The notes beneath the pieces were generated by a model. It searched no databases and had not been told where the DNA came from. It saw only the letters and a list, made by a program, of their open reading frames with translations. Source: Alphaproteobacteria bacterium (GTDB lineage Bacteria > Pseudomonadota > Alphaproteobacteria > Caulobacterales > Maricaulaceae). Taken from it: a stretch of 64,000 nucleotides of DNA. The translations under genes and the position numbers were made by a program. The DNA lies in the NCBI GenBank assembly GCA_016124675.1, contig WGNG01000021.1, positions 62,001 to 126,000 on the forward strand, read 5' to 3'. Shown piece after piece: positions 9,259 to 24,546 of the stretch; position 1 is the stretch's first letter, and each line of letters starts with the position of its first letter.

Positions 9259-10125
9259 CTACTCTGCGGGCACGGCTATGTTCTTGGGTACAAGCCGATG
9301 AGCCTGGGCGGTGACGATCTGGCGCAACCGGTCGGCGCCATTGACGTTGGGAATTGACGCGACGGCTTCGGACACGCGCGCCTTCAGCCGGCCAATCGCC
9401 CCGTCCATGCCGAGCTCGTGAACGCAGTTGGGCCGGCAGAGCTGGGCATCCTTTCCGGCTCCCTTGCCCGCTTCGCCGCCGCCTGCAGCATCCATGATAT
9501 CGTCAGCGATCTGATAGGCCTCACCGATCTTCTGACCCAGGGTCCGCCAGCGTTCCGGGTTCCCGCCTGCCACCAGCGCCCCGCCCATGGTTGCGGCGAC
9601 GAAGAGCGCACCGGTCTTGGCGCGGTGATATTGCTCCAGCGGTATCGCCGGTTCGCTCTCCCAAGCCTGGCCGGCCGAGATTCCGTTCGGCGCGCCGATG
9701 GAGCGGGCAATCAAGGCGGTCAGGGCCGGCAGGCGCGAGGGGTCCGGCGCCCTGGCCACCGCGATCGTTTCAAAGGCCAGCGCGATCAGCGCATCGCCCG
9801 TGAGAATCGCCAGAGGTTGCCCGAATACGGCGTGCACGGTGGGTTTTCCGCGGCGCAGGCTGGCGTCGTCAAAGGCCGGAAGGTCATCATGAACCAGCGA
9901 CGCGCAATGCAAGAGCTCAAGTGCGGCGGCGGCCGAATCGGCCAGATCCGGCGCAGGGTCGCCACAGGCGGCCGCCACAGCGAGCAAAAGCTGCGGCCTG
10001 ACCCGAGCGCCGCCCGGAAACACCGCATAAGCCAGCGCTTCGGAAAAGCGGGGCGGGCATCCCTTGCCGCCAGCCCGCTCGATTGCGGCGTGAAGCCTGG
10101 CCTCAATGCGTGCGTCCGCGTCCAT
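9259..10125 (-). CDS. crtE: geranylgeranyl diphosphate synthase
   Basis: This 288-residue trans-prenyltransferase makes GGPP for carotenoids and for the phytyl tail of bacteriochlorophyll. The first Asp-rich motif is in VHDDLPAFDD, followed by RRGKPT, and the second is AYQIADDIMD. The start at 10125 (MDADARIEARL) is preferred over one 30 bp upstream because GAGGAG lies at ribosome-binding distance. The longer reading frame would run back toward the PpsR box shared with divergent crtD. It is followed closely by crtF. Confidence 0.94.
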   Translation of the reverse strand: MDADARIEARLHAAIERAGGKGCPPRFSEALAYAVFPGGARVRPQLLLAVAAACGDPAPDLADSAAAALELLHCASLVHDDLPAFDDASLRRGKPTVHAVFGQPLAILTGDALIALAFETIAVARAPDPSRLPALTALIARSIGAPNGISAGQAWESEPAIPLEQYHRAKTGALFVAATMGGALVAGGNPERWRTLGQKIGEAYQIADDIMDAAGGGEAGKGAGKDAQLCRPNCVHELGMDGAIGRLKARVSEAVASIPNVNGADRLRQIVTAQAHRLVPKNIAVPAE

Positions 10126-10174
10126 GTCCCGCTCCTCATCGCTTGCGAGCGTCAAGAATACCTGTCACTTTAAG

Positions 10175-10192
10175 TGTTATGATGATTGGACA
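10175..10192. promoter_or_regulatory. PpsR/CrtJ-type operator between crtE and crtD
   Basis: A TGT-N12-ACA box lies in the 85-bp divergent region between crtE (start 10125) and crtD (start 10211). A nearby CACTTTAAGTG palindrome (10166-10176) overlaps its left edge. One site could control both directions. Confidence 0.8.
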
Positions 10193-10210
10193 CTTCAGCC
10201 TGGGCTGTCA

Positions 10211-11779
10211 ATGATGCGGACGCGGTCCGAGCACGGCGCGGTGATTATCGGCGCCGGCGTCGGCGGGCTGGCGGCCGCGATCGACCTGTCGTCGCGCGGC
10301 TTGCCGGTGACCCTTGTCGAGCGGGCTGACGGCCCCGGCGGGAAGATGCGCGCGCTCCATGTAGGCGGGCAGGACATTGACGCCGGTCCGACCGTGATGA
10401 CGCTTCGAAGCGCCTTTGACCGCCTGTTTGAGGAGGCCGGGTCGGCATTTGAAGACTATGTTGGCCTCATCCCGGCCGAGCGCCTGGCCCGCCATGCCTG
10501 GGATGCAGAGGACACGTTCGACCTGTTTGCAGATCCCGAGCGCTCCATTGATGAGGTGGGCCGCTTTTGCGGTGCGCGGCAAGCTGCCCTGTTCCGCCGT
10601 TTCCTGTCGGATGGTTGCAGGCTCTATGAGGCTCTGGACAGGAACTTCATGCAAATGCCCCAGTCGTCGCCGGTCGGCCTGGCCGGCCGCATGCTGCGTC
10701 ATAATCCGCGCGGCGCGCTGACGCTGAGGCCCTTCTCCAGCCTCTGGAGTGCGTTGGGGGATTATTTTCCGGATCCCCGGCTGCGCCAGCTGTTCGGCCG
10801 GTACGCCACCTATTGCGGGGCGTCGCCCTATCAGGCGCCGGCCACGCTCATGATGATCGCCGAGCTGGAGCAGCGCGGCGTCTGGTACGTCAAAGGCGGC
10901 ATGAGCCGGCTGGCGCACGGCATGGCCGCCTTTGCGGCCCGGCTGGGATGTGACATCCGCTATGGAGAGGCCGTCGATCAGGTCCTTGTCGAGGGCGGGC
11001 GGGCCTGCGGGGTCAGGCTGAGCTCCGGTGAGGTTCTGGCTGCGCGCGCGGTCGTGTCCAATGCCGATCCCGACGCCCTGCGCCAGGGCCTGCTTGGCCA
11101 GGCGGCGGTCCCGGCTCTGGGTGCGGTGCGGTTGCCGCGCAGCCTGTCGGCGCTGGTGTGGACGGCCACAGGGCGCCCCAGGGGCTTCGCGCTTGATCGG
11201 CATAATGTTGTTTTCTCAAGCAATTATGCCGCCGAGTTTGACGCCTTGTTTGCGCAAGGCCGCATCCCTGATGATCCGACAGTCTATGTTTGCGCGCAGG
11301 ATCGCGGCGCAGGTCCGCCGCCTGACGGCCCCGAACGGTTTCTGATTCTGATCAATGCGCCCGCGGATGGCGATGCGCGCACATATACGGCCCGGGAGAC
11401 GGATGCATGGCTCGATCTGACGCTCAACCAGTTGCGGGCGCGCGGTCTCGACCTCGACCTCGAAAGCATCGCCACAACAGCGCCGGACGGTTTCGCCAGG
11501 CTCTGCCCCGGGTCCGGCGGGGCCATATACGGCAGAGCCCTGCACGGATGGCGGGCGGCGTTTCTCAGGCCGGGAGCGCGCACCCGCCTGCCGGGCCTGT
11601 ATCTGGCGGGGGGCGGCGTACATCCGGGTCCGGGCGTGCCCACGGCGATGCTGTCGGGCCGGATCGCGGCGCGCTCGATCTGGGACGATTTGGCTTCGAC
11701 GCGGCGCCTGCGCCCGGCGGCTACCGCTGGGTCTATGCGGACGCCGTCAGCGGGGACGGACGTTACGCCCTCGTCCTGA
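10211..11779 (+). CDS. crtD: 1-hydroxycarotenoid 3,4-desaturase (methoxyneurosporene dehydrogenase)
   Basis: This 522-residue FAD-dependent carotenoid desaturase of the CrtI family introduces the 3,4 double bond in hydroxylated acyclic carotenoids. The dinucleotide-binding motif AVIIGAGVGGLAAAIDLSSRG begins near residue 9, and the C-terminal family motif appears as LYLAGGGVHPGPGVPTAMLSG. The start at 10211 is the first Met after the PpsR box; an ATG three bases later is equally possible and no strong ribosome site is seen. The family-like sequence ends near SIWDDL, and the final 28 or so residues are out-of-family and overlap crtC in another frame. Confidence 0.93.
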   Translation: MMRTRSEHGAVIIGAGVGGLAAAIDLSSRGLPVTLVERADGPGGKMRALHVGGQDIDAGPTVMTLRSAFDRLFEEAGSAFEDYVGLIPAERLARHAWDAEDTFDLFADPERSIDEVGRFCGARQAALFRRFLSDGCRLYEALDRNFMQMPQSSPVGLAGRMLRHNPRGALTLRPFSSLWSALGDYFPDPRLRQLFGRYATYCGASPYQAPATLMMIAELEQRGVWYVKGGMSRLAHGMAAFAARLGCDIRYGEAVDQVLVEGGRACGVRLSSGEVLAARAVVSNADPDALRQGLLGQAAVPALGAVRLPRSLSALVWTATGRPRGFALDRHNVVFSSNYAAEFDALFAQGRIPDDPTVYVCAQDRGAGPPPDGPERFLILINAPADGDARTYTARETDAWLDLTLNQLRARGLDLDLESIATTAPDGFARLCPGSGGAIYGRALHGWRAAFLRPGARTRLPGLYLAGGGVHPGPGVPTAMLSGRIAARSIWDDLASTRRLRPAATAGSMRTPSAGTDVTPSS

Positions 11780-12603
11780 TCGCGCTTCTGGGCAGCGTGT
11801 TCTCTCCCTACTATGCCTGGTCCGGACGCGGCGATCCGCTCAATCATTGCGCCCTCAATGTCTGCCTCTACGGCCCCGGCGTGCGGCGCTGGGCCATGAC
11901 CGAGCGGCGGCGCGGCGCGGTGGAGGCGAACGCCGACAGTCTGGCCCTGGGTCCCAGCCAGGTCCGCTTCGAGGACGGGGCGCTGATCTACGACATTGCA
12001 GAGTACGGCGCGCCCTTGCCCAAGGGCGTGCGCGGCCGGGTGGTGATCCGGCCCGAGGTGGAGCAGGGCGAGACTTTCACGCTGGACGGGGCCGGCCGCC
12101 ATGTCTGGCGCCCGGTCTGGCCACGCGCCCGGGTGGAGGCGCGGTTCGACGCGCCGGAGCTGACATTCTCAGGCGATGGCTATGTGGACATGAATGCGGG
12201 CAGCGAACCGCTGGAGGCCGGCTTCCGGTCCTGGAACTGGGCGCGCACGCCGACGCACGACGGCGCGGCCGTCCTGTATGACTCGGTCTGGGCGGACGGG
12301 GGCAGGCGGTCGCTGGCCCTGCGCATCGACGGCGCCGGGCGGGCGGAGGGCTTTGACGCGCCCGTCGAGCAGGCTTTGCCAAAGACCGGCTGGCGGGTGG
12401 ATCGCGCCGTCCGTTCGGATGGCCGGGCGCGGGTGATCACAACGCTCGAAGATACTCCCTTCTACTCGCGCTCCCTGATCGAGACAGGATTGCTGGGTGC
12501 GCGCCGGACATGGATGCATGAAAGCCTCGACCTGACGCGGTTTTCCTCGCCGGTGGTCAAGATGATGCTGCCCTTCCGCATGCCGCGGGCGTACTGGCGC
12601 TGA
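11548..12603 (+). CDS. crtC: carotenoid 1,2-hydratase (hydroxyneurosporene synthase)
   Basis: This enzyme adds water to the terminal 1,2 double bond of acyclic carotenoids, the step before CrtD and CrtF. Family segments are FDAAPAPGGYRWVYADAVS, IALLGSVFSPYYAWSGRG, FTLDGAGRHVWRPVWPRARV and WNWARTPTHDGAAVLYDS. The 5' end is uncertain. Family similarity begins near base 11704, inside the crtD tail, but the only ATG codons in frame before it are at 11548 and 11407, both deep inside crtD and without a ribosome site. The true start may be a rare codon or may depend on coupling with crtD termination. The 351-residue call is therefore an upper estimate. Confidence 0.85.
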   Translation: MAGGVSQAGSAHPPAGPVSGGGRRTSGSGRAHGDAVGPDRGALDLGRFGFDAAPAPGGYRWVYADAVSGDGRYALVLIALLGSVFSPYYAWSGRGDPLNHCALNVCLYGPGVRRWAMTERRRGAVEANADSLALGPSQVRFEDGALIYDIAEYGAPLPKGVRGRVVIRPEVEQGETFTLDGAGRHVWRPVWPRARVEARFDAPELTFSGDGYVDMNAGSEPLEAGFRSWNWARTPTHDGAAVLYDSVWADGGRRSLALRIDGAGRAEGFDAPVEQALPKTGWRVDRAVRSDGRARVITTLEDTPFYSRSLIETGLLGARRTWMHESLDLTRFSSPVVKMMLPFRMPRAYWR

Positions 12604-12643
12604 ACAGGCGGCGGTTGGCCCGGACGCGCCGAACAGGCCCGCG

Positions 12644-13108
12644 TCATGACCTGGTCCTGTTCAGCCGCACGATCTCAAGATTGAGCGTGGCGGCGATGGA
12701 GACCCAGACCAGATAGGGCGCCAACAGCCAGCCGGCGATGGCGTCGATCTGGGCGAAGGCGTAGAGATTGGCCGTCACAGCGAGCCAGAGCAGGATCACT
12801 TCGGCCAGCGCCAGACCCGGCTTGCGCATACCGAAGAACACCGCCGACCAGAGCGCGTTGAGCCCCAGCTGCAAGGCCCATAGGGCGAGCGCGGGATGCC
12901 ATCCGGCAAGGCCCCAAACCCGCCAGGCCGCTATGGCCATTGCGATGTAGAGGGTGGACCATACGATCGGAAAAACGATGTCCGGCGGGGTCCAGCCGGG
13001 CTTGTTCAGAGCCTTGTACCAGGCGCCCGGACGAAAGATCGCCCCGGTCAGGGACGCAAGGAACACTGCGGCGAGAAACGGCAGAAGGGTCCAATAGGGG
13101 GCGTCCAT
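12644..13108 (-). CDS. tspO: TspO/MBR family tryptophan-rich sensory protein
   Basis: This 154-residue membrane protein has five predicted helices. The WYKALNKPGWTPPDIVFPIVWSTLY region and the ALNALWS-like LNALWSAVFFG helix are TspO hallmarks. In Rhodobacter, TspO (formerly CrtK) sits between crtB and crtC and modulates photosynthesis gene expression through tetrapyrrole handling. The same position is kept here. The ATG at 13108 overlaps the stop of the preceding 39-residue ORF (TGATG), so the two are probably translated together; a GTG one codon upstream is an alternative. Confidence 0.95.
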   Translation of the reverse strand: MDAPYWTLLPFLAAVFLASLTGAIFRPGAWYKALNKPGWTPPDIVFPIVWSTLYIAMAIAAWRVWGLAGWHPALALWALQLGLNALWSAVFFGMRKPGLALAEVILLWLAVTANLYAFAQIDAIAGWLLAPYLVWVSIAATLNLEIVRLNRTRS

Positions 13109-13227
13109 CACTCCCCGTTACTCTCTTTGACATTCTTGCGCTTCATGCGGCGAAGCTCGCGCACGCCCCAGATGATGACCACCAGAGCCAGCAAGGCCTC
13201 CAGGGCGAAGAATACATAGTGGATCAT
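13108..13227 (-). CDS. 39-residue single-helix membrane protein between crtB and tspO
   Basis: This ORF begins MIHYVFFALEALLALVVIIW, a single hydrophobic helix, and ends with a strongly basic tail (VRELRRMKRKNVKES). A GGAGGAG ribosome site lies eight or nine bases before the ATG, and the TGA overlaps the tspO start, which argues strongly that it is translated. It resembles the small subunit-like membrane proteins that often sit in this place in photosynthesis clusters, but I do not recognise a named family. It could stabilise TspO or another membrane complex; that is inference. Confidence 0.75.
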   Translation of the reverse strand: MIHYVFFALEALLALVVIIWGVRELRRMKRKNVKESNGE

Positions 13228-13257
13228 GCTCGCAGCTCCTCCGGGTCTTCGGCCGCA

Positions 13258-14289
13258 TCAGCCGCCGGCCGCCCTGTCTCTCATCTTAACATCATGCAGG
13301 ATTCCGATCACCCGCCCCCACTCCTCATCCACGCGCCACCAGGGCGGCGGCGTGTCCGGGGCCGGCGCGTCCGGGGCGGCATCGACGAGAAAACGCGTTT
13401 CGGCCAGCGGTCCCTCGGCTGCGGCGGTGGAGGCGAACACGGCATCAAGCACGGCGGCGCCCGCCAGGCCCAGCTTGCGCAAGGTTGACGTGGTCGCGCG
13501 GCGATTGACTGTATCGAAGCGGTTACGCCCGGCCTCGACGCCAATCTCCCGGTAGATCCGCGCCGCGGCGTGAATGGCGGGCCGGCACCGGGACGGGAGA
13601 AAGGCAATGCCCGGGCGCGCGCGCCGGTACAGCCGGTCAGCCTCCGTCAGCAATCGCTGGACGCAGGCGGCGATATGCGCGTCGAAGCGCGGCTCGGCCA
13701 GCCACGCATCCGGGTCGCGGCCCGCTTCGGCAAACCAGGCGCGCGGCAGGTACAGGCGGCCCACCCGGGCGTCCTCGCCCACATCCCGTGCGATATTGGT
13801 CAGCTGCATGGCCACGCCCAGATCGCAAGCGCGCGCCAGGGCCTCGGCGCTGCGGGCGCCCATGACCAGCGACATCATCGCTCCGACCGAGCTCGCCACC
13901 CGGGCGCCATAGGCGCGCACGTCCGACAGCGTCTCATACTGGCGGCCGGTCGCATCCCAGGCAAAACCCTCGATGAGGGCGTCGGGCAAGGCTTGTGGTA
14001 TGTCGCATTGGCGCACCACATCACTGAAGGCGCGGTCGATCGGGCTGTCGGCCGGTTGGCCGGCGTAAATCATCGCCAGGCGCCGGGTGACCAGGCTGCA
14101 GGCCGCCGCGGCGTCCTCGCCCTGATCGACCGTATCGTCCGCCCACCGGCAGAATCCGTACAGCGCGAAGGCCCTGTCACGCGCCTCGCGAGGCAACAGA
14201 AACGAGGCGGCAAAAAAACTCTTCGACCCTCCCCTGATCGCTGCGCGGCAGGCCTGGATATCCTGCGGGCTGGCAAACGGTTCAGCCAT
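13258..14289 (-). CDS. crtB: 15-cis-phytoene synthase
   Basis: This 343-residue squalene/phytoene synthase family enzyme condenses two GGPP to phytoene. The motifs GGSKSFFAASFLLP, LYGFCRWADDTVDQGED (first Asp-rich motif) and AMQLTNIARDVGEDARVGRLYLP (second Asp-rich motif) are all intact. The start at 14289 gives MAEPFASPQDIQACR and overlaps the crtI stop as ATGGCTGA, a coupled arrangement. The C-terminal tail after the conserved domain is Ala/Pro-rich. The crtI-crtB order is standard. Confidence 0.96.
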   Translation of the reverse strand: MAEPFASPQDIQACRAAIRGGSKSFFAASFLLPREARDRAFALYGFCRWADDTVDQGEDAAAACSLVTRRLAMIYAGQPADSPIDRAFSDVVRQCDIPQALPDALIEGFAWDATGRQYETLSDVRAYGARVASSVGAMMSLVMGARSAEALARACDLGVAMQLTNIARDVGEDARVGRLYLPRAWFAEAGRDPDAWLAEPRFDAHIAACVQRLLTEADRLYRRARPGIAFLPSRCRPAIHAAARIYREIGVEAGRNRFDTVNRRATTSTLRKLGLAGAAVLDAVFASTAAAEGPLAETRFLVDAAPDAPAPDTPPPWWRVDEEWGRVIGILHDVKMRDRAAGG

Positions 14290-15805
14290 AGGCGGCGGCA
14301 TCCGGCACGATGGCGTCAAGCACGCGTGCGGACGACAGAACGCCCGGAACGCCTGCTCCGGGGTGCGTGCCTGCGCCGACCAGGTAAAGCCCCTCGACCT
14401 CCTCGCTCTTGTTGTGGGCCCGGAACCAGGCTGACTGGGTGAGCAGGGGCTCCAGCCCGAAGGCGGCGCCGTGAACCGAGTTCAGACGGTCGCGAAAGTC
14501 CAGGGGGGTCATGACCCGCGAGACCTCAACGGAGTCTTTCAGGCCGGGCAGCAAAGTCTCTTCAAGCCGCTGCTCCACCGCCTGGCGGTAGGGCTCGGCC
14601 ATCTTTGCCCAGTCGGTGTCGCCGGTCAGATTGGGAACCGGAGACAGCACATAGAACGCCTCGCATCCCGGCGGCGCCATGGAGGGGTCTGTGGCTGTCG
14701 GGCGGTGAAGGTACAGGCTGAAATCCTCCGCCAGGCGCTTCTTCTCAAAGATATCGCTGAGCAGCCCCCGGTAACGCGGACCCAGCAGAATTGTATGATG
14801 ATCCACGTCCGGGTACAGCTTTCTTGTCCCGAAATACCACAGGAACAGGCTCATGGAGTAGCGGGCCGTGTCAACCTTCCGGTCCGTCCATCGCTTGCGC
14901 CGCACGCCGGACATGAGATGCTTGTAGGTGTGTCCGACTTCGGCGTTGGACACGATCACCTGCGCCGGGATATGGCGCCCGCCAGCCAGCTCCACGCCCG
15001 TGGCCCGGCCATTCTCCACCGTGATCTGACGCACTTCGCTGTTGCACAGCACCTCTCCGCCCTGGCCCCGGATCAGGTCAACCACACCCTCCACAAGCCG
15101 GCCCGTCCCGCCCATGACGAAGTGAACGCCCCACTGACGCTCCAGGTGGGAGATGAGGCAATAGAAGGAGCTGGCGGCGAACGGGTTTCCGCCCACGAGC
15201 AGGGGATGAAAGCTCAGGGCGACCTGGAGCTGCGGATTCTTGATATACTTGGAAACAAGCTGGTGCACGGTCCGATAGGAGGACAGGCGGATCAGGTCCG
15301 GTGTCGCCCGCGCCATGGATGACAGCGTGTGGAACGGCGCATGCGCCAGCTCCTTGAAGCCGACCTCGAAGATATCCTTGCTCTTGCGCAAGAAGCGCTC
15401 ATAGCCCTCGAGATCGTCCGGGGCCACCCGCATGACTTCCGCCCGCATGGCGTCGGCGTCGCGCGGGCAGTGAATGACGCTGCCGTCGTCAAACCGGATG
15501 GCGTAGAACGGATCGATCTCGCGCAGATCGATCTCGTCCTCGAATGTGCGCCCGGCCAGCCGCCACAATTCCTCCAGCAGGAACGGGGCGGTAATGATGG
15601 TGGGCCCGGCATCGAACACATAGCCGCTGTCCTTGAACACGTAGGCCCGGCCCCCGGGCGCATCGAGCTTCTCGAGCACGGTCACCCGATACCCGCGCGC
15701 GCCGAGCCGGACGGCCGCCGCCAGCCCGCCAAAGCCCGCTCCGATCACGATCGCATGGGGCCTTCCCGGCTGCTGGGCGGGAGTGTCATCGGTGCGTTCG
15801 AGCAT
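14282..15805 (-). CDS. crtI: phytoene desaturase
   Basis: This 507-residue FAD-dependent desaturase converts phytoene to neurosporene or lycopene in the membrane. The N-terminal FAD motif AIVIGAGFGGLAAAVRLGARG and the C-terminal GLYLVGAGTHPGAGVPGVL signature are intact. The start at 15805 (MLERTDD) is preferred because GGAGG lies five bases upstream; an alternative GTG at 15847 lacks a site. Whether it performs three or four desaturations cannot be read from the sequence. It overlaps crtB by 8 bp. A degenerate TGT-N12-TGA sequence (15849-15866) lies upstream on the same strand. Confidence 0.96.
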   Translation of the reverse strand: MLERTDDTPAQQPGRPHAIVIGAGFGGLAAAVRLGARGYRVTVLEKLDAPGGRAYVFKDSGYVFDAGPTIITAPFLLEELWRLAGRTFEDEIDLREIDPFYAIRFDDGSVIHCPRDADAMRAEVMRVAPDDLEGYERFLRKSKDIFEVGFKELAHAPFHTLSSMARATPDLIRLSSYRTVHQLVSKYIKNPQLQVALSFHPLLVGGNPFAASSFYCLISHLERQWGVHFVMGGTGRLVEGVVDLIRGQGGEVLCNSEVRQITVENGRATGVELAGGRHIPAQVIVSNAEVGHTYKHLMSGVRRKRWTDRKVDTARYSMSLFLWYFGTRKLYPDVDHHTILLGPRYRGLLSDIFEKKRLAEDFSLYLHRPTATDPSMAPPGCEAFYVLSPVPNLTGDTDWAKMAEPYRQAVEQRLEETLLPGLKDSVEVSRVMTPLDFRDRLNSVHGAAFGLEPLLTQSAWFRAHNKSEEVEGLYLVGAGTHPGAGVPGVLSSARVLDAIVPDAAAYG

Positions 15806-16010
15806 GGCAGCCTCCATCCGCGCATCGTTCAGCTTCGGCGCAGTCACTTCAGTATCTATATTGACACGCCCAGCCTTGCCAGCCCGGCCGTGCGCGGTGA
15901 GGTACAGCCGCTGCGCGGCCTGCGCCGGGTGAATTCATGTTGCCGAGCGGTGACTAATTTGTTTCAATTTTGCCGCTGGGCCAGTCGGCCCGGACGAATC
16001 GGCGGTGGAC

Positions 16011-17195
16011 ATGGGCAAGACCATTCTGTTGACCCTGGGGCGGTTGCCGAAAGGGTTGGAATTGGCGCGATGCCTGCACGGGGCCGGCAACCGGGTGATC
16101 ATTGCGGACCCCTTCGCCCTGCATCTTTCGAAGCCGTCCAGAGCTGTCGCGCGCTGCGTGAGGACGCCGGCGCCGGCGTCAGACCCTGAAGCCTATCTGG
16201 ACGCCCTGTGCCGGATCATCCGCGAGGAGGCGGTGGATCTGGTCATTCCCGTGTCCGAGGAAGTCATGCATGTGGCCGCTCTGGCCGGCCGTCTGCCCGC
16301 GACGGCCGAGCTCCTGTGCGAACCGTTCGAGCGCATCCTGACGCTGCATGACAAATTCGAGTTCATGGAGACTGTCGCCGGGGCGGGCTTGCGGGCGCCG
16401 CCGACCTGCCTGGGCGACAGCGCCGGGGCGGCGGCGCTGGCGGAGTCTGGCGAAACGGTCGTGAAGGCGCGCTTTGGATGCGCGGGATCGGGACTGCACT
16501 TTCTGAGCGCCGGCCAGATCCTGCCCGATCAGCTCAGGTCTGCAGACTGGGTGGTGCAGCGCCGGATCAGGGGGCGGGAGTACAGCACGCAATCTCTCTG
16601 CCGCAACGGCGAGGTGCTGGCGCATGTCAACTATCGTGGTCTCATTTTCTCCGGAACTGTCGCGGTGTGCTTTGAGCAAGTGGCGCTTCCGGCCATTGAT
16701 GAGTGGGTTTCAAGGTTTGCCGGGCAAACCGGGTTCACAGGGTTTGTCGCCTTTGATTTCATCGTTGACGCGGATGGAACGCCCTGGCCCCTGGAGTGCA
16801 ACCCGCGCCTGACCAGTGGCCTGCATTTCCTGCGCCATGATGACCTCGCGGCGGTGATCATGGGACAGCCCATCGGCCATCGCGTGCGCCTGAAAGCCCA
16901 GCCACGCTTCCAGGAAAGCCATACCGCGCTGACCCGGGCCTACAGCCAGGCGCTCAGGCCCGCCGCCTTCTGGCGCATGTTGAAGACCATGGCCAGCGCC
17001 CGCGATGTGCTCTGGTCAGCTGCCGATCCCTGGGTGTTTCCGCTGATGACGCCCATGTCATGGCCGGTCCTGAAGCAGGTGATCTTCCAGGGGCGCAGTT
17101 TCGGCGACGCGGCGACGCTGGACATCCAGTGGCATCCTGCGGGGCCCGTCCCGCCCCAGTCCGGCGCGCCGGCGCATCAGGCGGCTGCGTTGTGA
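16011..17195 (+). CDS. ATP-grasp domain protein in the crtA position
   Basis: This 394-residue protein resembles carbamoyl-phosphate-synthase-type ATP-grasp ligases. An N-terminal Rossmann-like pre-ATP-grasp domain (TILLTLGRLPKGLELARCL) is followed by LVIPVSEEVMHVAALAG, a HDKFEFMETVAGAGLRAPPT linker, a KARFGCAGSG nucleotide loop and the metal-binding WPLECNPRLTSGLHFL motif. ATP-grasp enzymes join a carboxylate to an amine, thiol or other nucleophile through an acyl phosphate. The substrate is unknown. The gene lies divergent from crtI and overlaps the convergent P450 gene by 19 bp at the 3' ends. A GTG at 16005 is an alternative start. A role in carotenoid or pigment tailoring is inferred from position only. 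Confidence 0.8.
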   Translation: MGKTILLTLGRLPKGLELARCLHGAGNRVIIADPFALHLSKPSRAVARCVRTPAPASDPEAYLDALCRIIREEAVDLVIPVSEEVMHVAALAGRLPATAELLCEPFERILTLHDKFEFMETVAGAGLRAPPTCLGDSAGAAALAESGETVVKARFGCAGSGLHFLSAGQILPDQLRSADWVVQRRIRGREYSTQSLCRNGEVLAHVNYRGLIFSGTVAVCFEQVALPAIDEWVSRFAGQTGFTGFVAFDFIVDADGTPWPLECNPRLTSGLHFLRHDDLAAVIMGQPIGHRVRLKAQPRFQESHTALTRAYSQALRPAAFWRMLKTMASARDVLWSAADPWVFPLMTPMSWPVLKQVIFQGRSFGDAATLDIQWHPAGPVPPQSGAPAHQAAAL

Positions 17196-18562
17196 CGCCT
17201 CACCCGTACACGGATCTGCTCAGCAGGGCGCGTCGTAAGGCGGGCGGAGGGGCGCACCTTGTCGCGCGCCAGGACGTCAAAATCAAACTGCTGCGCCAGG
17301 GTCGCCAGAATCAGCACCGCTTCCAGCGTGGCGAACCCGGCTCCGACGCAGGTGTGCGGACCGGAGCCGAAGGGGATGTAGGCGTGGGGGTTTATCTCGG
17401 CCTCCCGGCCAGGCATGAAGCGATCCGGATCGAAATGATCGGGCCGGGGCCAGTATTGCCGGTGGCGCTGCAGCGTCCAGGGCGAAATCATCAGCAGCGC
17501 CCCTTTGCGAACGGCGTAGGGGCCTATTCGCCCTGCCCGCATGGCCACCCGCGGCATGAAGGTGATCGGCGGGTACAGGCGAAGGGTTTCACGAAACACG
17601 CTGCGCGTGAACAGCAATGTGCGCACGGCCTCGAAGCTGAGGGCGCCGCCGCCGGACACGGCGCTGACCTCCCCACGCAACCGAGCCAGGATATCGGGCT
17701 GGATGGCCAGCAGGTAAAACGCCCAGGTGAGCGCGCTGGCCGTGGTTTCATGTCCGGCCAGGAAGAAGACGCCCAGCTGGTCGATCAGCTCCTCTCGGTC
17801 AAAGGGTTGGCCGGTATCGTTGTCGCGCGCCGCGATCACCGCGCTGGCGATGTCGTCAAAGGCGCCGTCCCCGGCCTCCAGATGGGTGTCGATCAAGGCG
17901 CCCAGGTGCTTGCGAATCCGGGTGCAGGCCGCCAGCACATCCGGATCCTGCTGCGCCCTTGTCCAGGCCGGGTCAACGATAAGCCGCCATATCTTCACCT
18001 GAGCGACGCCCCGTTCGAAGATCGAAAAATCTTCAAACACGTCCCGCGAGATCTGGGAGTCGAGCGAAATGGAGAAAACCGTACGGCATATGATGTCGGC
18101 GGTGAGCTCGCTCATGATCTGATCGAGGGAGAGTGTTGCGCCCGTCTCGGCGGCCGCGCCGAGGCGTTCGCAGCAATCCGCCGCTGCCGCCTGCATGGCG
18201 CCGAAAGCCAGGTTGAGGCGCATCTTGGAGAAGGCCGGATCGATCATGGCGCGCTGGCGCCGCCATTTGGGACCGTCCGAAACGAAAATGGAATCGCCGA
18301 TGAGCGGCTCCAGCGCTCCCACCATCAGGTCGCTCTTGGGATAAAGCCCGTCCGTTTCATGGAGAATCTGACGCACCAGGTCGGGATCATTGAAAAGCTT
18401 GATGGAGCGGCGCGAAAAACCGAGCTCGCCGGCCTTCATGGAGAACGCTTCGCCGGGAAGCAGGCTGAGCAGGTCGCCGTCCCCGTGCCATACAGTGCGC
18501 ATCAGCGACAGGATTGCCGGGAGCCGCGAGGGCCGCGGCGGCCTGAAATCTCCTGCTGGCAT
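17177..18562 (-). CDS. cytochrome P450 in the photosynthesis cluster
   Basis: This 461-residue P450 has all key motifs: I-helix oxygen-activation motif AGHETTASALTW, the ExxR motif in FRETLRLYPP, the DHFDPDRFMPGR segment and the haem-binding loop FGSGPHTCVGAGFA with the thiolate Cys. It has no N-terminal membrane anchor, so it is a soluble class I enzyme that needs a ferredoxin, none of which is encoded nearby. A GGAGG lies about nine bases before the ATG. It lies between crtI and bchODI, where other purple bacteria have the carotenoid monooxygenase gene crtA. Carotenoid oxidation is therefore the leading hypothesis, not proven. Its 3' end overlaps the ATP-grasp gene. Confidence 0.92.
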   Translation of the reverse strand: MPAGDFRPPRPSRLPAILSLMRTVWHGDGDLLSLLPGEAFSMKAGELGFSRRSIKLFNDPDLVRQILHETDGLYPKSDLMVGALEPLIGDSIFVSDGPKWRRQRAMIDPAFSKMRLNLAFGAMQAAAADCCERLGAAAETGATLSLDQIMSELTADIICRTVFSISLDSQISRDVFEDFSIFERGVAQVKIWRLIVDPAWTRAQQDPDVLAACTRIRKHLGALIDTHLEAGDGAFDDIASAVIAARDNDTGQPFDREELIDQLGVFFLAGHETTASALTWAFYLLAIQPDILARLRGEVSAVSGGGALSFEAVRTLLFTRSVFRETLRLYPPITFMPRVAMRAGRIGPYAVRKGALLMISPWTLQRHRQYWPRPDHFDPDRFMPGREAEINPHAYIPFGSGPHTCVGAGFATLEAVLILATLAQQFDFDVLARDKVRPSARLTTRPAEQIRVRVRRHNAAA

Positions 18563-18614
18563 GCCTGTCGCCTCCGTCCAGATACGAACATTTCAACCGG
18601 GTGGTGCTAAATCC

Positions 18615-19376
18615 ATGTCTGCACATGACATCTTCGTTGTCTTCATCGTCCTTCACATCATCACGGGCGCGCCGGGCCTGATCGCCTTCTGGGTGCCCGT
18701 CGCCGCCCGTAAGGGCGGCAGGCTTCATCGCCTGTCGGGCCGGTTTTTCGCCATCGCGATGCTCATAACCGCGCTGGCCGCGACCAGCATGTCAAGCCTG
18801 ACCTTGTGGCAGCCCATGGAGACCCACCCCCACCTGGCCGAGCATGCGGAGTTTTCCGATCCCGCCCTGGTGCGGGGGATATTTGGCTGGATGATGCTTT
18901 ACCTGTCCATCCTGACCATCAATCTGGCCTGGTATGGCTGGCGGGCCGCCGTCAACAAGCATGATCACGCGCGCAATCGCGACTGGGTCAACGGCGTGCT
19001 GCAACTGGCCTTGCTTGTCGCGTCCGTCCAGTGCGCCCTGCAGGGGTTCGGTCTGGGTCAGCCGATGATGATCGGGATGTCGCTGGTGGGATTCGCCACT
19101 GTAGGCACAAATCTCTGGTTTCTTCTCAGGAGAAGCCCCGGCCCGGTCGAGTGGTTGCTGGAACACATAAAGGCCATCGTCGGAACGGGGATATCGGTCT
19201 ATACGGCCTTCTTTGCCTTTGGCGCCGTGCGGCTGGTTCCCGAACTGGCGCTTGCCCCTGTGCTCTGGGCCGTGCCCTTGCTGATCGGGCTGGGCCTGAT
19301 CCTGTACTACCGCCGCCAGGTCAGCCGCCGGTTCAGGGCCGGCCACGCATCAAGACTGGCGCCGCACGCACATTGA
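18615..19376 (+). CDS. polytopic membrane protein, DUF2306-like
   Basis: This 253-residue protein has about seven hydrophobic segments. The start MSAHDIFVVFIVLHIITGAPG and the region GRLHRLSGRFFAIAMLITALAA, with a His at the end of a helix, are typical of DUF2306-like membrane proteins, which resemble small haem-b-like bundles. The start at 18615 is 52 bp from the divergent P450 start. The function is unknown. A partnership with the P450 is suggested by the shared promoter region only. It ends 14 bp before the convergent DUF3422 gene. Confidence 0.7.
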   Translation: MSAHDIFVVFIVLHIITGAPGLIAFWVPVAARKGGRLHRLSGRFFAIAMLITALAATSMSSLTLWQPMETHPHLAEHAEFSDPALVRGIFGWMMLYLSILTINLAWYGWRAAVNKHDHARNRDWVNGVLQLALLVASVQCALQGFGLGQPMMIGMSLVGFATVGTNLWFLLRRSPGPVEWLLEHIKAIVGTGISVYTAFFAFGAVRLVPELALAPVLWAVPLLIGLGLILYYRRQVSRRFRAGHASRLAPHAH

Positions 19377-19390: not shown

Positions 19391-20695
19391 TCAATCCTCC
19401 TGCACCGACTTGCCGAACCCGCCGCGCACGCGCCGCAGGCCCAGAATCAGCGCCAGCGCGACCAGGGGAACGGCGGCGGCGGTGATGATGGCCGCGTCCA
19501 GCGGCAGGCCGAGCACCTCGGTGCCCTTGGCGAAATAGGCGATCAGCCCGACCAGGTAATAGGTGATGGCGGCGATCGAGAGACCTTCCACCGTGCGCTG
19601 CAGGCGCAGCTGGATCTTGGCGCGCCGCGCCATGGCGGCGAGAAGCTTGCGGTTGTCCTGCTGCTGGGTCAGGGCGACGCGGGTGGACAGCAATTGCGTC
19701 ACCCGCGCCAGGTGCTCCGACATGGACTCCAGCCGGTCGGAGACGGCGTCGAGCGTGCTCATCGCGGGCGCAAGGCGGCGCTCCACGAACTCGGCGAAGG
19801 TTTGCAGGCCTTCCAGGCGCTCCTCGCGCAGCTCCTCGATGCGCGCCTGGACGATGCCGTAATAGGCCGCCGAAGCGCCGAACCGGTAGCGGTGCTGGGA
19901 GTGCCGGCGTTCAATGTCCGACTGCAGGCGCGTGATCCGGTCGAGAAGCTTGCTTTCGTCGGAGCGCACATCATCGGCCATTTCATGGGTGATGGCCGCC
20001 AGCTCCTGCTCGCGCGCGGTCATGATCCGTCCCAGATCGCGCGCGGCGGGCAGGCCGAGCAGCGCCATCATGCGGTAGGTGTCCATCTCCAGGAGGCTGC
20101 GCATCAGGCGGCCGGCCTGGATCGGCGACAGGCTGCGATTGCGGATGAGATAGCGGTTGAACCCGTCGCCATGGGCGCGGAAGCTGGTCAGCGCCACGGC
20201 GCCGCCGGACGCAAGCCTCGAGCCGACGAGCTCGGCGTCGCCGAACAGATGCCGGGCCAGCTCGTCATCGCCTGCCGCGTCATCGGGCGTGTTCACCATC
20301 AGGACATGGGCGGCGAAAATCACCTGGCCCGGCAGGCCGGCGAGCCAGTCGGCGGGCGCCTCCGCGATGGGCGGATTGTCGAAGGGCGAGCGCACATCGC
20401 CGTTCTGGCGGATGAAGGTGTAGCGGGTGAACTCGGTATGGCGCTCCCAGATCACGCGCACGGGACCGAGATGCGCATTGTAATGATTGGCGCCGTCGGC
20501 AGGCAGGGCGGCGCTGAAGCGCGCCGCCAGCGCGGCGATGGCCGCGCGGTCGGCGGCCTGCTCCTCCGGGCCGGTGTAGAGCACCAGATAGGATGCGCTC
20601 AAAGGCGCAGTGAGCGCCTGGGGCGGGCGGGCGTGAACCTCCTCGCTCAGTTCAACCCGGCGCGGATGGTTGGCAGGCAAGGTGAGGGCAGGCAT
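19391..20695 (-). CDS. DUF3422 family membrane protein in the bchIDO operon
   Basis: This 434-residue protein matches the DUF3422 family layout. It begins with HPRRVELSEEVHARPP, has a soluble domain with the YTFIRQNGDVRSPFDNPP segment, then a long helical stretch rich in Arg, Glu and Leu (about residues 235-350) and two C-terminal membrane helices (ITYYLVGLIAYFAKG and a second before the tail). The family has no established function. The start overlaps the bchO stop by one base, so it is the last gene of the bchI-bchD-bchO unit and probably shares its regulation. Confidence 0.8.
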   Translation of the reverse strand: MPALTLPANHPRRVELSEEVHARPPQALTAPLSASYLVLYTGPEEQAADRAAIAALAARFSAALPADGANHYNAHLGPVRVIWERHTEFTRYTFIRQNGDVRSPFDNPPIAEAPADWLAGLPGQVIFAAHVLMVNTPDDAAGDDELARHLFGDAELVGSRLASGGAVALTSFRAHGDGFNRYLIRNRSLSPIQAGRLMRSLLEMDTYRMMALLGLPAARDLGRIMTAREQELAAITHEMADDVRSDESKLLDRITRLQSDIERRHSQHRYRFGASAAYYGIVQARIEELREERLEGLQTFAEFVERRLAPAMSTLDAVSDRLESMSEHLARVTQLLSTRVALTQQQDNRKLLAAMARRAKIQLRLQRTVEGLSIAAITYYLVGLIAYFAKGTEVLGLPLDAAIITAAAVPLVALALILGLRRVRGGFGKSVQED

Positions 20696-21597
20696 CAGTT
20701 TCCTCCGGCCAGGCGGTGCGCTGGCTCACGGACCCTTGTATCAAGCCCGGCGGCTTGCGCCGCAAGCCGTATGATGCCGGCGGCGCGGACAGGGTCTTCT
20801 TCATGGGCGAGATGGCCAAGGCCGGGCAGGCGGATCGCCTGACACCCGGGAATGCGGCGCGCCGCGGCCCAGGCGTCCTGCGCGGGCGTGGCGCGGTCGT
20901 TCTCTCCCAGCACCACGGTCACGGAGGCCGTCACCCGGCACAGATCGGCCAGAAGCGGGCGCAGCTTCCAGTGCGCCATCAGGCGCAGCGTCCCCGCGAT
21001 GTGGCCGGGCTGCCGCAGCAACTGGCGATACAGCGCCACGCCGGACGCGTCTAGATGCGAGCCGGTGCGCGCCATGAGGCGGGCGATGCTCTGGTCATTG
21101 GCGCGCATCGCCACGAGGCGCGGGGTGAGCGGGTTGAGCATGGCGAGCCGCGCCATTTTCGAGGCGAGCCCGTCAGCCGCGCCGCCATAGGGCTGCAGCG
21201 CCGGCGCAAAACCGATGAGCGCACGCGGCCGGATCAGTCCGTCGAGCGTCATGCGCAGCGCGACAGCCGCGCCGGCCGAATGGCCCGCGGCGATGGCGGG
21301 GGCCACGCCGATGCGCGCCAGAAGCGCGCCGAGCGCCTGGGCGACCAGGGGCAGTTCGGGCGCCTCCATGGGGCCGGAGAATCCGTGGCCGGGCAGGTCG
21401 GCCATGACGATGGTGAACTCGCTGGCGAGGGCGCGCGCCAGGTGCTCGAACGAGTGGGTTGACGCCCCGGCGCCGTGAATGAGCAGCAGGGCCGGCCCCG
21501 AGCCGAAGCGCTGGACATGCCAGCTCACCCCGCCAGCGGACACGATCTCGCTGGCGTCGCGCCAGGGCCAGTCAGCCGGGATGCGCGCCAGCGTCAT
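20695..21597 (-). CDS. bchO: magnesium-chelatase-associated alpha/beta hydrolase BchO
   Basis: This 300-residue alpha/beta hydrolase follows bchD with an ATGA overlap. It shows the oxyanion segment LLIHGAGAST, the nucleophile elbow AAGHSAGAAVALR and the catalytic His in LPGLGHLAHEEDP; an Asp in VLGENDRATP completes the likely triad. BchO is consistently linked to bchID in purple bacteria and is thought to help magnesium insertion into protoporphyrin IX, though its reaction is not established. Confidence 0.92.
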   Translation of the reverse strand: MTLARIPADWPWRDASEIVSAGGVSWHVQRFGSGPALLLIHGAGASTHSFEHLARALASEFTIVMADLPGHGFSGPMEAPELPLVAQALGALLARIGVAPAIAAGHSAGAAVALRMTLDGLIRPRALIGFAPALQPYGGAADGLASKMARLAMLNPLTPRLVAMRANDQSIARLMARTGSHLDASGVALYRQLLRQPGHIAGTLRLMAHWKLRPLLADLCRVTASVTVVLGENDRATPAQDAWAAARRIPGCQAIRLPGLGHLAHEEDPVRAAGIIRLAAQAAGLDTRVREPAHRLAGGN

Positions 21598-23342
21598 GCG
21601 GCCGCCTTTCGCGCCAGATCGGCGAGCGCGCCGGGATTGCCTGCGGGCAGCCGCACATAGCGCGCGGCCATGGCCTGCGCGACCGAGCGGGCAGTGTCCG
21701 CGCCGCGCCTGGATACGTCGACGATGATGGCGCCATGGCCCGCCGCGCGCAGGCGCCTTGCCGCGTCATGCGCTTCGGCCTGGGCGATGTCGCGCCCGCT
21801 GGTTCCGGCGCGCGTGACATTGGCCGCGCCGTCCGTGAGGAAGACCAGCGTCACGGTGCGCCCCTGACGCGCGGCGCCGTGGGCGAGCGCTTCGGCCGCG
21901 TCGATCGCGGTGGCCAGCGGCGTGCCGCCGCCGCCAGGCAGGGCGGCGAGGCTTTTCTTGGCGCGGGTGAGCGAGCGGGTTGGCGGAAGCAGGGTCTCGG
22001 CGGTGCTGCCGCGAAAGGCGATGAGCGCCACCTGGTCGCGCCGCACATATGATTCCGCCAGCATCAGCTCCACCGCGCCCTTGGCTTCGGCCAGGCGGTT
22101 CAGCGCCAGGGAGCCTGACGCGTCCACGACGAAGATCGTCAGCGTCTCGGCCTTCTGCTTGAAATGCTTGATGCGGAAATCCTCACGGCGGACCTCCAGC
22201 GCCGGACCGGATTTCAGCCGGTCCCAGCCGCGCCGGCGCATGCGGCCCCAGGGCGCAGCGGCGCGCAGCGTCGCCAGCACGTCAAGCTTGCGCCCCTCGC
22301 CCGGATCGCCGCGGCGCGTGCCGGCGGGACGTCCACGCTGGCCGCTCCTGCGCGTGGCGCCCGCCCGACCGCCTGCGCCGGAGCCGCGCGGCGGGGCGCC
22401 GGCTTCCAGCCGCGCCAGCAAGCCCGCAGGCATGGCGGCCTTCGCGGCCTCGGTGGTGATTTCGGTCAGATCGTCGGGCGTCTGAACCGTGTCGGGATCC
22501 GGGTCAGGCTCGTGATTGTCGTGCTGCGCGTCCTGATCCTGCGGCGGGGCGTCAGGCGGCTCGCCGGGCGCGGGATCGTCCTCAGCCTGGTCCTGATGGG
22601 GCAGGTGCAGGGCGCGCGGCGCCAGCACCAGCCGGGCCGCCAGCGCAGCCTGCGCCTCGCCGATCTCATCCAGCCCGTCCAGCGCCGCCGCGGCGCGCGC
22701 GGCGCGCAGCGCCAGAAGCGGCGGGCGCAGGGAGGTGATCCCCAAGGCGGCGGCGGTCCGGGTCAGCGCGCGGTCAGCATCGCCGTTCTCGACATAGGGC
22801 AGGCGCACGCGCGCCATCGCCACGGCCTCGCGGTCATGCTCCGCCTGGGCTTCGCTCAGATCGCTCAAGGCCACGCCCGACAGATCGAGATGGAAGGCGA
22901 GGCGTTCGGTCAGCGCGCCGGGCGCGCCGTCATCGGGGTCCGCGCTTTCATCCAGCGCGATGATCATCGGCGCCGGGGCGGCGTCGAGCGCCAGGGCGAG
23001 GCGCGCCGCCAGCCCGGCCCCGGCGCGTTCGGCCATGGCCAGCACGCCGACACCGTTCCTGATGTCATCGAGCAAGCCTGCGCGATGCACGGCGCGCCCG
23101 GCTTTCAAGGTCCCGGCGAGATCGACGCCGCCCAGCAGCGCTTCGTCGCCGACCCCTGCCGGGATGCGCCGCCAGGGCGCGGCTTCGTTGACAAGGTTGC
23201 GCAAGGCCTCCAGCCAGGCGTCGCGCGCCGGGCCGGCGCGGGCCTTGAGCATGGCGCCGCCAAGTCCGGGATCGACCGCCAGCAGCGCGGCGGCCAGGCG
23301 CGCCTGCGCCCAGCCGCCCCGCGTATCGGCGGGCGCGCTCAC
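21594..23342 (-). CDS. bchD: magnesium chelatase subunit D
   Basis: This 582-residue protein is the AAA+-plus-integrin-I subunit of Mg-chelatase, which works with BchI and BchH to insert magnesium into protoporphyrin IX. An ATPase-like N-terminal half with degenerate nucleotide motifs is followed by an acidic Pro/Asp/Gln-rich linker (about residues 250-300), a basic Gly/Arg segment and a C-terminal von Willebrand A domain with the MIDAS motif in FVVDASGSLALNR and a FLTDGAANV strand. It overlaps bchI upstream and bchO downstream, each as ATGA. Confidence 0.96.
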   Translation of the reverse strand: MSAPADTRGGWAQARLAAALLAVDPGLGGAMLKARAGPARDAWLEALRNLVNEAAPWRRIPAGVGDEALLGGVDLAGTLKAGRAVHRAGLLDDIRNGVGVLAMAERAGAGLAARLALALDAAPAPMIIALDESADPDDGAPGALTERLAFHLDLSGVALSDLSEAQAEHDREAVAMARVRLPYVENGDADRALTRTAAALGITSLRPPLLALRAARAAAALDGLDEIGEAQAALAARLVLAPRALHLPHQDQAEDDPAPGEPPDAPPQDQDAQHDNHEPDPDPDTVQTPDDLTEITTEAAKAAMPAGLLARLEAGAPPRGSGAGGRAGATRRSGQRGRPAGTRRGDPGEGRKLDVLATLRAAAPWGRMRRRGWDRLKSGPALEVRREDFRIKHFKQKAETLTIFVVDASGSLALNRLAEAKGAVELMLAESYVRRDQVALIAFRGSTAETLLPPTRSLTRAKKSLAALPGGGGTPLATAIDAAEALAHGAARQGRTVTLVFLTDGAANVTRAGTSGRDIAQAEAHDAARRLRAAGHGAIIVDVSRRGADTARSVAQAMAARYVRLPAGNPGALADLARKAAA

Positions 23343-24346
23343 GCGGCGAAGGCCTCGGCGAGCCCGCGTTCAATGCGGACCGACGAGCCGGCCTCGTCGA
23401 GGGGATCGCGGCGCAAGCGGTGGCGCAGGGCGGCCGGCGCCACGGCGCGCAAATGCTCCAGCGACATCGCCGCGCAGCCTTCAAGGGCGGCTTGCGCGCG
23501 GGCGGCGCGGATGAGGGTGAGTTCGCCGCGCAGGCCGTCGGCGCCCAGAGCCATGCAGATTTCCGAGGCGCGCCGCAGCACTGCGTCGGTCGTTTCGATT
23601 TTCGCCACCAGTGTCTGGGCCTTGGCGATGCGCGCGCGCAGCTCGCCGACCGCCTCCTCCCAGCGCGCGCAGAAGGCCACGGGATCGCGCTCGAAAGCAT
23701 CGCGCCGCCGCACCACTTCGATGCGGTCCTCGATATCGCGCGGGGTGGAGACTTCAACCGACAGGCCGAACCGGTCGAGCAATTGCGGGCGCAGCTCGCC
23801 TTCCTCCGGGTTGCCGCTGCCCACCAGCACGAATTTGGCCGGATGGCGCACGCTCAGCCCGTCGCGCTCGACCACGTTTTCGCCCGTGGCCGCCACGTCC
23901 AGCAGCAGATCGACGATGTGATCCTCCAGAAGATTGACCTCGTCGATATAGAGAAAACCCCGATTGGCGCGCGCCAGCAAGCCCGGCTCGAACGCCTTTT
24001 CGCCCTTGCGCAGCGCCTTTTCGATGTCGAGCGCGCCCACTACCCGGTCCTCGGTCACGCCCAGCGGCAGATCGACCACGGGCGTGGGCTTGCGCACCTG
24101 ATGTCCGCGCGCCCTGGCGTCGCCGCCAATCGGATCGGAGCCCGGCGCGCTGTTATAGGGGCAGTGCTCGTAGGTCTCGATCTCGGGCAGAAGGCCGGCC
24201 AGAGCGCGCACGGCGGTGGATTTGGCGGTGCCGCGATCGCCGAAGATCAGCACCCCGCCGACCCTCGGCTCGACGCAAGCGATCAGCAGGGCCTGCTTCA
24301 TCTCTTCCTGCCCGACAATGGCGGGGAAGGGAAAGTTCAGTGTCAT
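23339..24346 (-). CDS. bchI: magnesium chelatase ATPase subunit I
   Basis: This 335-residue AAA+ ATPase has FPFPAIVGQEEMKQALLIA at its start, the Walker A loop LIFGDRGTAKSTAVRAL, a Walker B region in GFLYIDEVNLLEDHIVDLLLD and sensor motif LVGSGNPEEGELRPQLLDRFG. The start at 24346 (MTLNFPFP) is chosen over much longer in-frame extensions because the family begins there. A PpsR-type box lies 31 bp upstream. It leads the bchI-bchD-bchO-DUF3422 operon. Confidence 0.97.
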   Translation of the reverse strand: MTLNFPFPAIVGQEEMKQALLIACVEPRVGGVLIFGDRGTAKSTAVRALAGLLPEIETYEHCPYNSAPGSDPIGGDARARGHQVRKPTPVVDLPLGVTEDRVVGALDIEKALRKGEKAFEPGLLARANRGFLYIDEVNLLEDHIVDLLLDVAATGENVVERDGLSVRHPAKFVLVGSGNPEEGELRPQLLDRFGLSVEVSTPRDIEDRIEVVRRRDAFERDPVAFCARWEEAVGELRARIAKAQTLVAKIETTDAVLRRASEICMALGADGLRGELTLIRAARAQAALEGCAAMSLEHLRAVAPAALRHRLRRDPLDEAGSSVRIERGLAEAFAA

Positions 24347-24377
24347 GGAGGCGCCTCGGTTCGTCACAAGCGTGAAG

Positions 24378-24395
24378 TGTCTAGCAAATTGGACA
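24378..24395 (-). promoter_or_regulatory. PpsR/CrtJ-type operator upstream of bchI
   Basis: A third TGT-N12-ACA box (TGT, CTAGCAAATTGG, ACA on the plus strand) lies 31 bp upstream of the bchI start. An eight-T run follows at 24405-24412. The box should place bchI, bchD, bchO and the DUF3422 gene under the same oxygen/light repression as bchC and crtE/crtD. Confidence 0.85.
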
Positions 24396-24546
24396 CTCGC
24401 ACAATTTTTTTCGTCTGGCACCGCCGTCCGTGACGTTTTTCCACCGTGGCGCTGACCGCGCTTGCGCGCGTCCGGGGCGGGCGCACCAGGGCTTGACCCT
24501 GGCACCCAACGCCATGATCCTCGCGCATCATCAAGGGGCGGAGATC

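Follow-up and report, generated by a model that had tools for sequence, protein, structure and literature searches.

An ATP-grasp, cytochrome P450 and DUF2306-like gene cassette linked to photosynthesis gene clusters of Alphaproteobacteria

Three genes between crtI and bchODI

Within the photosynthesis cluster of an alphaproteobacterial genome of 2.88 Mb (the source genome, G000) lie three genes, here called the cassette, that encode an ATP-grasp ligase-like protein, a cytochrome P450 and a DUF2306-like membrane protein. We analyzed them in a 64,000-nucleotide stretch of that genome (the window; G000:C8:62001-126000), the left part of which carries pufM, pufL, bchZ, bchY, bchX, bchC, crtF, crtE, crtD, crtC, tspO, crtB and crtI, followed by the cassette, a DUF3422 gene, bchO, bchD and bchI (Table 1). 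An earlier note, made from the sequence alone, had placed the three genes between crtI and bchIDO; the genes are indeed present and their flanks were confirmed with NCBIfam models, but the DUF3422 gene intervenes before bchO. The description given there also needs correcting in that the P450 gene runs antiparallel to the other two, such that the ATP-grasp and P450 genes converge with a 19-bp overlap and the P450 and DUF2306-like genes diverge across 52 bp. The cassette is separated from crtI by 157 bp and from the DUF3422 gene by 14 bp. We took the ATG at 18615 as the likely start of the DUF2306-like gene because homologue alignments begin there. Among the carotenoid genes, crtD and tspO scored above the equivalog cut-offs, and crtC, crtB, crtE and crtF were named by their best sub-cut-off matches together with gene order. 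A DUF3422 gene also occupies the crtI-bchO gap of relatives that have the cluster and lack the cassette (G085 and G090).

The P450 of the window is a member of the cytochrome P450 superfamily, scoring 237.2 bits against PF00067 (cut-off 22.8) and retaining intact motifs: AGHET at 269 (I-helix), ETLR at 325 (ExxR) and FGSGPHTCVG at 398 (heme-cysteine). Likewise, the product of the first gene belongs to the ATP-grasp ligase family. It matched ATP-grasp_3 (PF02655) at 37.7 bits (cut-off 23.2) and has K154 and the sequence ECNPR at 264, with K154, E264, N266 and R268 invariant among 12 aligned sequences, and its AlphaFold model (pLDDT 83.9) has PurK, the L-amino acid ligase BL00235, PylC and biotin carboxylases as its nearest folds in the Protein Data Bank (PDB), with a Foldseek E of 1.5e-17 to a PurK structure. 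As these nearest folds comprise carboxylate-amine ligases together with biotin carboxylases, at query TM-scores of ~0.5-0.6, carboxylate-amine ligation would be only a default guess at its activity. The protein resembles PRK06849-type proteins (NF005315) over nearly its full length (256.2 bits) but falls under the cut-off of 406 and so is not a member of that equivalog, which differs in gene neighbourhood and is itself named only "hypothetical protein". On plasmids of Rhizobium, Shinella and Roseateles, ATP-grasp proteins 32-39% identical to it are encoded convergently with a Rieske protein.

The third protein has seven hydrophobic segments, and four of its histidines (H14, H38, H71 and H184) were invariant among 13 aligned sequences, 10 of which matched DUF2306 (PF10067) at E <=0.1 (best E 3.9e-4). 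Naming it by fold was rejected, as its AlphaFold model (pLDDT 80.1) had no PDB match at E <=0.001 (best E 0.11).

Table 1. Coordinates of the cassette and its neighbours in the window
Feature	Coordinates	Strand	Details
crtF, crtE, crtD, crtC, tspO, crtB (acyclic carotenoid pathway), no crtA	8147..14319	.	open reading frames (ORFs) and NCBIfam
crtI phytoene desaturase, left neighbour	14282..15847	-	TIGR02734, 615.3 bits
ATP-grasp ligase-like protein, cassette gene 1	16005..17195	+	396 aa; GTG 16005, likely start ATG 16011
Cytochrome P450, cassette gene 2	17177..18562	-	461 aa, ATG start
Divergent intergenic region, P450/DUF2306-like	18563..18614	.	52 bp
DUF2306-like membrane protein, cassette gene 3	18615..19376	+	253 aa; ORF 18390-19376
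DUF3422 protein, between cassette and bchO	19391..20695	-	PF11902, 508.8 bits
bchI (23339-24505), bchD (21594-23342), bchO (20695-21597)	20695..24505	-	TIGR02030, NF009943 and TIGR03056, above cut-off

Conservation of the cassette and its near-confinement to phototrophs

We compared 24 neighbourhoods around P450s of this group, 7 of them loci of the window's genus found via the ATP-grasp gene and the other 17 found via the P450 (the contigs of L049, L050, L051 and L058 are those of G095, G092, G091 and G087, respectively, and were counted once; the neighbourhoods of G561, G589 and G590, 3 of the 12 Roseibium-family genomes with the P450, are left out). All three genes occurred in 20 of the 24, and because their arrangement was the same in 20 of 20, the set is more than a chance association. 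The incomplete neighbourhoods have the P450 and DUF2306-like genes (G264) or the P450 gene alone of the three (G232, G241 and G545). Genes of the crt or bch series lay within ~10 kb in 14 of the 20 three-gene loci, and tspO directly adjoined the cassette in 4 more. A search for the same genes near crtI or bchI in other genomes, which the earlier note had put forward as a check, thus found widespread linkage, and the tie to photosynthesis clusters is firmer than could have been known from the sequence alone.

Within the window's family, bchI (E 1e-80) was present in 10 of 136 sampled genomes, all 10 of them among the 15 of the window's genus. A close ATP-grasp homologue (63-100% identity) was found in seven of those 15 (G000, G087 and G091-G095), all with bchI, and in each of the seven the three genes stand together in the same order and orientation; no genome-wide P450 search was made in the genus genomes that lack the ATP-grasp gene. 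The placement varies: G000, G093 and G094 share the order crtI, cassette, DUF3422-bchODI, G087 and G092 have the cassette beside bchI in opposite orientations, G091 has it ~25 kb from bchI, and in G095 it lies on an 8.9-kb contig on which no other photosynthesis genes were found. In three genus genomes (G085, G090 and G097) the cluster is present and the cassette absent; there, the aligned part of crtI is separated from that of DUF3422 or bchO by <0.25 kb. The P450 of G087 (L027:7799-9182) aligns in two frames, owing to a frameshift or an assembly error.

Outside the genus, the P450 search returned 11 loci, of which 4 were genus loci already counted and 7 were new, all with three genes: Labrenzia sp. 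R4_2, an uncultured Labrenzia, AO1-B, Roseibium denhamense, two Anderseniella metagenome-assembled genomes (MAGs) and MAG RI_46. In the Labrenzia/Roseibium group and AO1-B the cassette is flanked by crtI and bchO and stands the other way round from the window's; in Anderseniella it lies between crtI-crtD and crtB, and in RI_46 beside crtD. Its carriers include the cultured strain Roseibium denhamense JCM 10543. Of six further Roseibium-family loci, two had the cassette between crtI and bchO; in the other four it adjoined tspO, and the 12-20 kb examined around those four contained no crt or bch match (E 1e-6). The ATP-grasp gene of G600 (L113:5563-6706) aligns in two frames, through a frameshift or an assembly error.

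These flanks bear on what the three proteins might modify. The module could act on another lipid of the photosynthetic membrane (a bacteriochlorophyll side chain, a quinone, a hopanoid or a free polyprenol) rather than on a carotenoid, as might be suggested by G087 and G092, where the cassette adjoins bchI and not a crt gene, by the four genomes in which tspO alone was found beside it, and by the fact that neither the P450 nor the ATP-grasp family is specific to carotenoids. Against this stand the P450 relatives encoded directly downstream of crtA, described below, and the fact that in 12 of the 20 loci (the window's, G093, G094, L052-L057, L059, L114 and L115) crtI, crtD or crtB is the closest photosynthesis gene flanking the cassette on one side or both. 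We therefore consider a non-carotenoid substrate unlikely.

Of 385 genomes sampled from the class, 26 have reaction-centre genes (PF00124). P450s scoring >500 bits occurred in 4 of these 26 phototrophs (G000, G232, G241 and G264) and in 0 of the 359 other genomes (Fisher p = 1.7e-5). In the Roseibium denhamense family (87 genomes), P450s of >750 bits occurred in 12 of 18 phototrophs and 0 of 69 others (p = 1e-10); both Fisher values ignore relatedness. The cassette-type ATP-grasp protein (805 bits) was found in G000 only, 1 of the 385 genomes, the next best match scoring 143 bits, and among 289 genomes DUF2306-like proteins of >390 bits occurred only in G000 and G264, beside the P450 in both. 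The next P450 tier in the class sample (292-355 bits with the A1 model) comprises eight genomes, seven of which have no crtI_fam match over the cut-off; the eighth, G388, is a phototroph. This distribution, like the lack of crtI in seven non-phototrophs with P450s of the G541 type (see below), is counted in favour of the carotenoid-tailoring reading. By their repeated linkage to these clusters and their near-absence from non-phototrophs, to which G545 is the exception, the three genes qualify as photosynthesis-cluster accessory genes.

Some next-tier P450s (L094:7825-10406, L095:9431-12057, L096:8156-10956 and L076:9317-11934) are paired with an upstream protein of 405-440 aa, which has weak alpha/beta-hydrolase matches in L094 and no Pfam match in L076.

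The P450 in relation to CrtA and the probable movement of the cassette

The standard set of cluster carotenoid genes is given as crtAIBKCDEFJ (PMC3176799). The earlier note had suggested that the P450 may have taken the place of CrtA as terminal carotenoid oxidase, in the position that crtA, the ketolase gene, has in the Rhodobacter cluster, and CrtA (NF045923) was indeed not found in 12 distinct cassette genomes tested (the 7 of the genus and those of L051-L053, L055, L057 and L059, the genome of L051 being G091; L054, L056 and L112-L117 were left out), with 0 matches in G000 at E 1e-15. However, none of the 14 genus genomes tested (G088 was left out) had CrtA, the cassette-less phototrophs G085, G090 and G097 being among them, and of the 26 class-sample phototrophs 22 likewise lacked it. 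Moreover, the position and orientation of the cassette vary, and in the window it faces the bchO end of its neighbours, unlike crtA, which the gene table for Dinoroseobacter shibae lists beside bchI (PMC6052148). We therefore rejected the notion of a crtA position. A replacement of CrtA by the P450 is improbable on these grounds and also because members of this P450 group are found together with crtA in two genomes (G241 and G232).

In the first of these (G241), the order is bchI, crtA, P450, ACT-domain gene, GMC oxidoreductase, zinc alcohol dehydrogenase, crtI, crtB, tspO, and the P450 lies directly downstream of crtA with an 8-bp overlap of the two ORFs (L075:8697-10863). In the second (G232), the P450 gene begins 5 bp downstream of crtA (L074:8883-11107); histidine-degradation genes adjoin, and no crt or bch match was found in the 20 kb read. 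CrtA was identified with NF045923 (cut-off 300), which gave 307.6 bits in G241 and 294.6 bits, just under the cut-off, in G232; the ~260-aa gene that precedes the P450 in L074 and L075 had also been considered as a diverged DUF2306-like protein, a possibility rejected on the strength of the NF045923 match. The spheroidene monooxygenase CrtA is comparable to the cassette P450 in that it too performs O2-dependent late carotenoid tailoring and is encoded in photosynthesis clusters, upstream of relatives of the window P450 in G241 and G232, and it differs in that CrtA is not a P450 (PMC10604819) and no gene for it was found in the genome of the window. From the adjacency of crtA and P450 relatives it follows that the acyclic carotenoids used by CrtA are probably substrates of the P450 group too, which would work alongside CrtA and not instead of it. 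Thus, the carotenoid substrate suggested for the P450 in the earlier note is plausible.

P450 trees were built first with 26 rows, which included an outlier (G000_P450b, end branch 10), then with 20 and finally with 27, the last being midpoint-rooted (the G087 P450 was omitted from alignments A1 and A6 and from the trees, its locus being counted, and G094, L054 and L058 were also omitted from the trees). All 17 cassette P450s of the final tree group in a single clade (support 98/99), the sister of which is the P450 of G264 (91/97). In G264 the P450 and DUF2306-like genes adjoin bchI, and no ATP-grasp match was found in the 16 kb read or genome-wide (E 1e-40). The P450s of G232, G241, G545 and G541 fall outside this pair and within a larger group (100/99), where the branching order is not settled and long branches were flagged. 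Should the root fall outside, the cassette could have been built stepwise, with the P450 first paired with CrtA, then with the DUF2306-like protein, and the ATP-grasp protein joining last; the order is tentative, as the tree was rooted at its midpoint.

Between Labrenzia R4_2 and the window, the P450s are 73% identical, as compared with 55% for crtI and 57% for bchI, and the Labrenzia P450 is 65% identical to that of G606, a member of its own family. Since the P450 identity exceeds both the crtI and bchI values and the value within its own family, these figures fit horizontal transfer of the cassette, which may have spread in this way between orders. Such signs of movement would also suit a passenger, that is, a small natural-product or detoxification island that travels with photosynthesis clusters and has no metabolic tie to them, as would the distant ATP-grasp relatives encoded in an unrelated cluster beside a Rieske protein. 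The P450 subfamily, however, is nearly absent outside phototrophs, the cassette has been inserted at several different cluster sites, and relatives of the P450 are linked to crtA, such that we regard the passenger explanation as the least probable of those considered.

The unrelated cluster is conserved and unnamed. It is found on plasmids of Paraburkholderia, Rhizobium, Roseateles and Shinella (L118-L121) and encodes a KAS III-like protein, an NAD(P)-dependent oxidoreductase, an MBL-fold hydrolase, a CoF/F390 synthetase-like protein, a GNAT protein and the ATP-grasp protein, two of these being annotated simply as hypothetical in Roseateles; all but one of the four plasmids also encode a Rieske protein. 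An ATP-grasp/Rieske pair also occurs at L126:9566-11742.

A possible role in carotenoid tailoring, and other features of the window

Taken together, these results led us to a reading that we think has about an even chance of being correct: the cassette would be a conserved, horizontally spread, O2-dependent tailoring module for the acyclic (spirilloxanthin-type) carotenoids of anoxygenic phototrophs. The products of crtEBICDF would yield a spirilloxanthin-type carotenoid, which we infer to be the substrate of the P450; the latter, with electrons from a ferredoxin encoded elsewhere, would put O2-derived oxygen near the acyclic end. More speculatively, the DUF2306-like protein, with its four invariant histidines, may be the partner of the P450 in the membrane, either as a second oxidase or by presenting the carotenoid. 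Equally speculative is a final conjugation: at the expense of ATP, the ATP-grasp enzyme might couple an amine to the oxidised group, which in the simplest case would be a carboxylate. A precedent for the membrane protein may be PraC, a fungal DUF2306 protein encoded, like the cassette protein, with oxidative enzymes and needed in vivo for pramanicin epoxidation, the oxidation of a hydrophobic substrate; its authors leave open whether PraC is the epoxidase itself (PMC12895699). PraC differs in being fungal and in having a polyketide-peptide substrate.

Several observations weigh against the carotenoid-tailoring reading. No product is known for the cassette, and the in vivo carotenoid peaks given in PMC13029026 for a Maricaulaceae phototroph, which may or may not have the cassette, are at 484/517/553 nm. 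The membrane protein scored 19.5 bits against PF10067, under the cut-off of 31.6, so that "DUF2306-like" is the right wording. Confinement to phototrophs is weakened by P450s of the G541 type (435-474 bits with the A6 model) in seven non-phototrophs with no crtI_fam match over the cut-off, and by G545, which has a 609-bit P450, 46% identical to that of the window, and neither reaction-centre genes nor crtI. A third DUF2306-like match, that of the phototroph G281 (201 bits, 35% identical), is unlinked to carotenoid genes and lies beside a Crp-type regulator and conjugation genes. Moreover, the cassette is not required for phototrophy, because it is absent from 3 of 10 phototrophs of the genus and its P450 is absent, at the threshold used, from 6 of 18 in the Roseibium family. 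Finally, four genomes have the cassette away from the cluster. In three of them, pufLM (27-29 kb away) and the crtI match (41-43 kb away) share its contig; in the fourth it lies on another contig.

The likeness of the P450 to CYP97 enzymes gives the carotenoid-tailoring reading no help either. With a 14-sequence profile, the best solved relative was LUT5 (237.7 bits), which we take to be CYP97A3, a plant carotenoid hydroxylase as is CYP97C1, and a carotene epsilon-monooxygenase (6l8h) scored 173.5 bits; with the window P450 alone, an uncharacterised "putative cytochrome P450" (7wzl, 178.6 bits) outranked LUT5 (173.5 bits). Three control P450s from genomes without crtI over the cut-off also had LUT5 and 7wzl as their top matches and scored 182.0, 144.9 and 154.9 bits against LUT5. 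As P450s of crtI-less genomes score LUT5 alike, the similarity is silent on the substrate, and we rejected it as evidence for a carotenoid. The substrates of plant CYP97 enzymes are cyclic carotenoids, which are not expected in the window organism. As for the solitary P450 of G545 (L110 9820-11229), it may be a remnant of lost phototrophy or have another use as an enzyme.

In a bolder version of the carotenoid-tailoring reading, phototrophs of different orders have passed on the three genes as a unit for producing pigments of a new class: the P450, helped by the DUF2306-like protein as a membrane co-oxidase, would oxidise an acyclic photosynthetic carotenoid, which the ATP-grasp enzyme would then couple to an amino acid or another amine. 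We put this forward as a tentative and rather doubtful possibility. No description of the cassette was found in the literature searched, which left subscription journals mostly outside and comprised passages of PMC3176799, PMC10604819, PMC6052148, PMC10008586, PMC12654162, PMC13029026, PMC12700997, PMC7844134 and PMC3338782, and none of the terms searched for was found in PMC12817894. One legend in PMC3338782 includes a P450 among the genes drawn for Citromicrobium. That such a conserved addition to the clusters (a P450, a membrane protein that may be oxidative, and a ligase) occurs in a minority of lineages and seems to have moved between orders implies that a pigment or membrane lipid is modified in a way not yet described, one tied to phototrophy in the presence of oxygen. 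The cassette may also provide a bacterial system in which to study membrane proteins of the DUF2306 type, of which little is known.

We also looked for a common regulatory site before the cassette. The PpsR-type motif TGT-N12-ACA was not found in the two cassette regions of the window tested, including the P450/DUF2306-like intergenic region; outside the window, 3 of the 11 regions upstream of ATP-grasp genes had it (L056, L057 and L028, the last sharing it with bchI), and 0 of 15 P450/DUF2306 regions did (14 loci, L073 being represented twice). A common PpsR-type site in front of the cassette therefore seems unlikely. Elsewhere in the window, the motif occurs at 8108 (between bchC and crtF), 10175 (near the crtE and crtD starts) and 24378 (near the bchI start). 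Farther to the right, at 36006-39536, the window encodes a trimeric autotransporter-like protein of 1176 aa with matches to YadA head and stalk regions and a segment resembling a T7 tail fibre.

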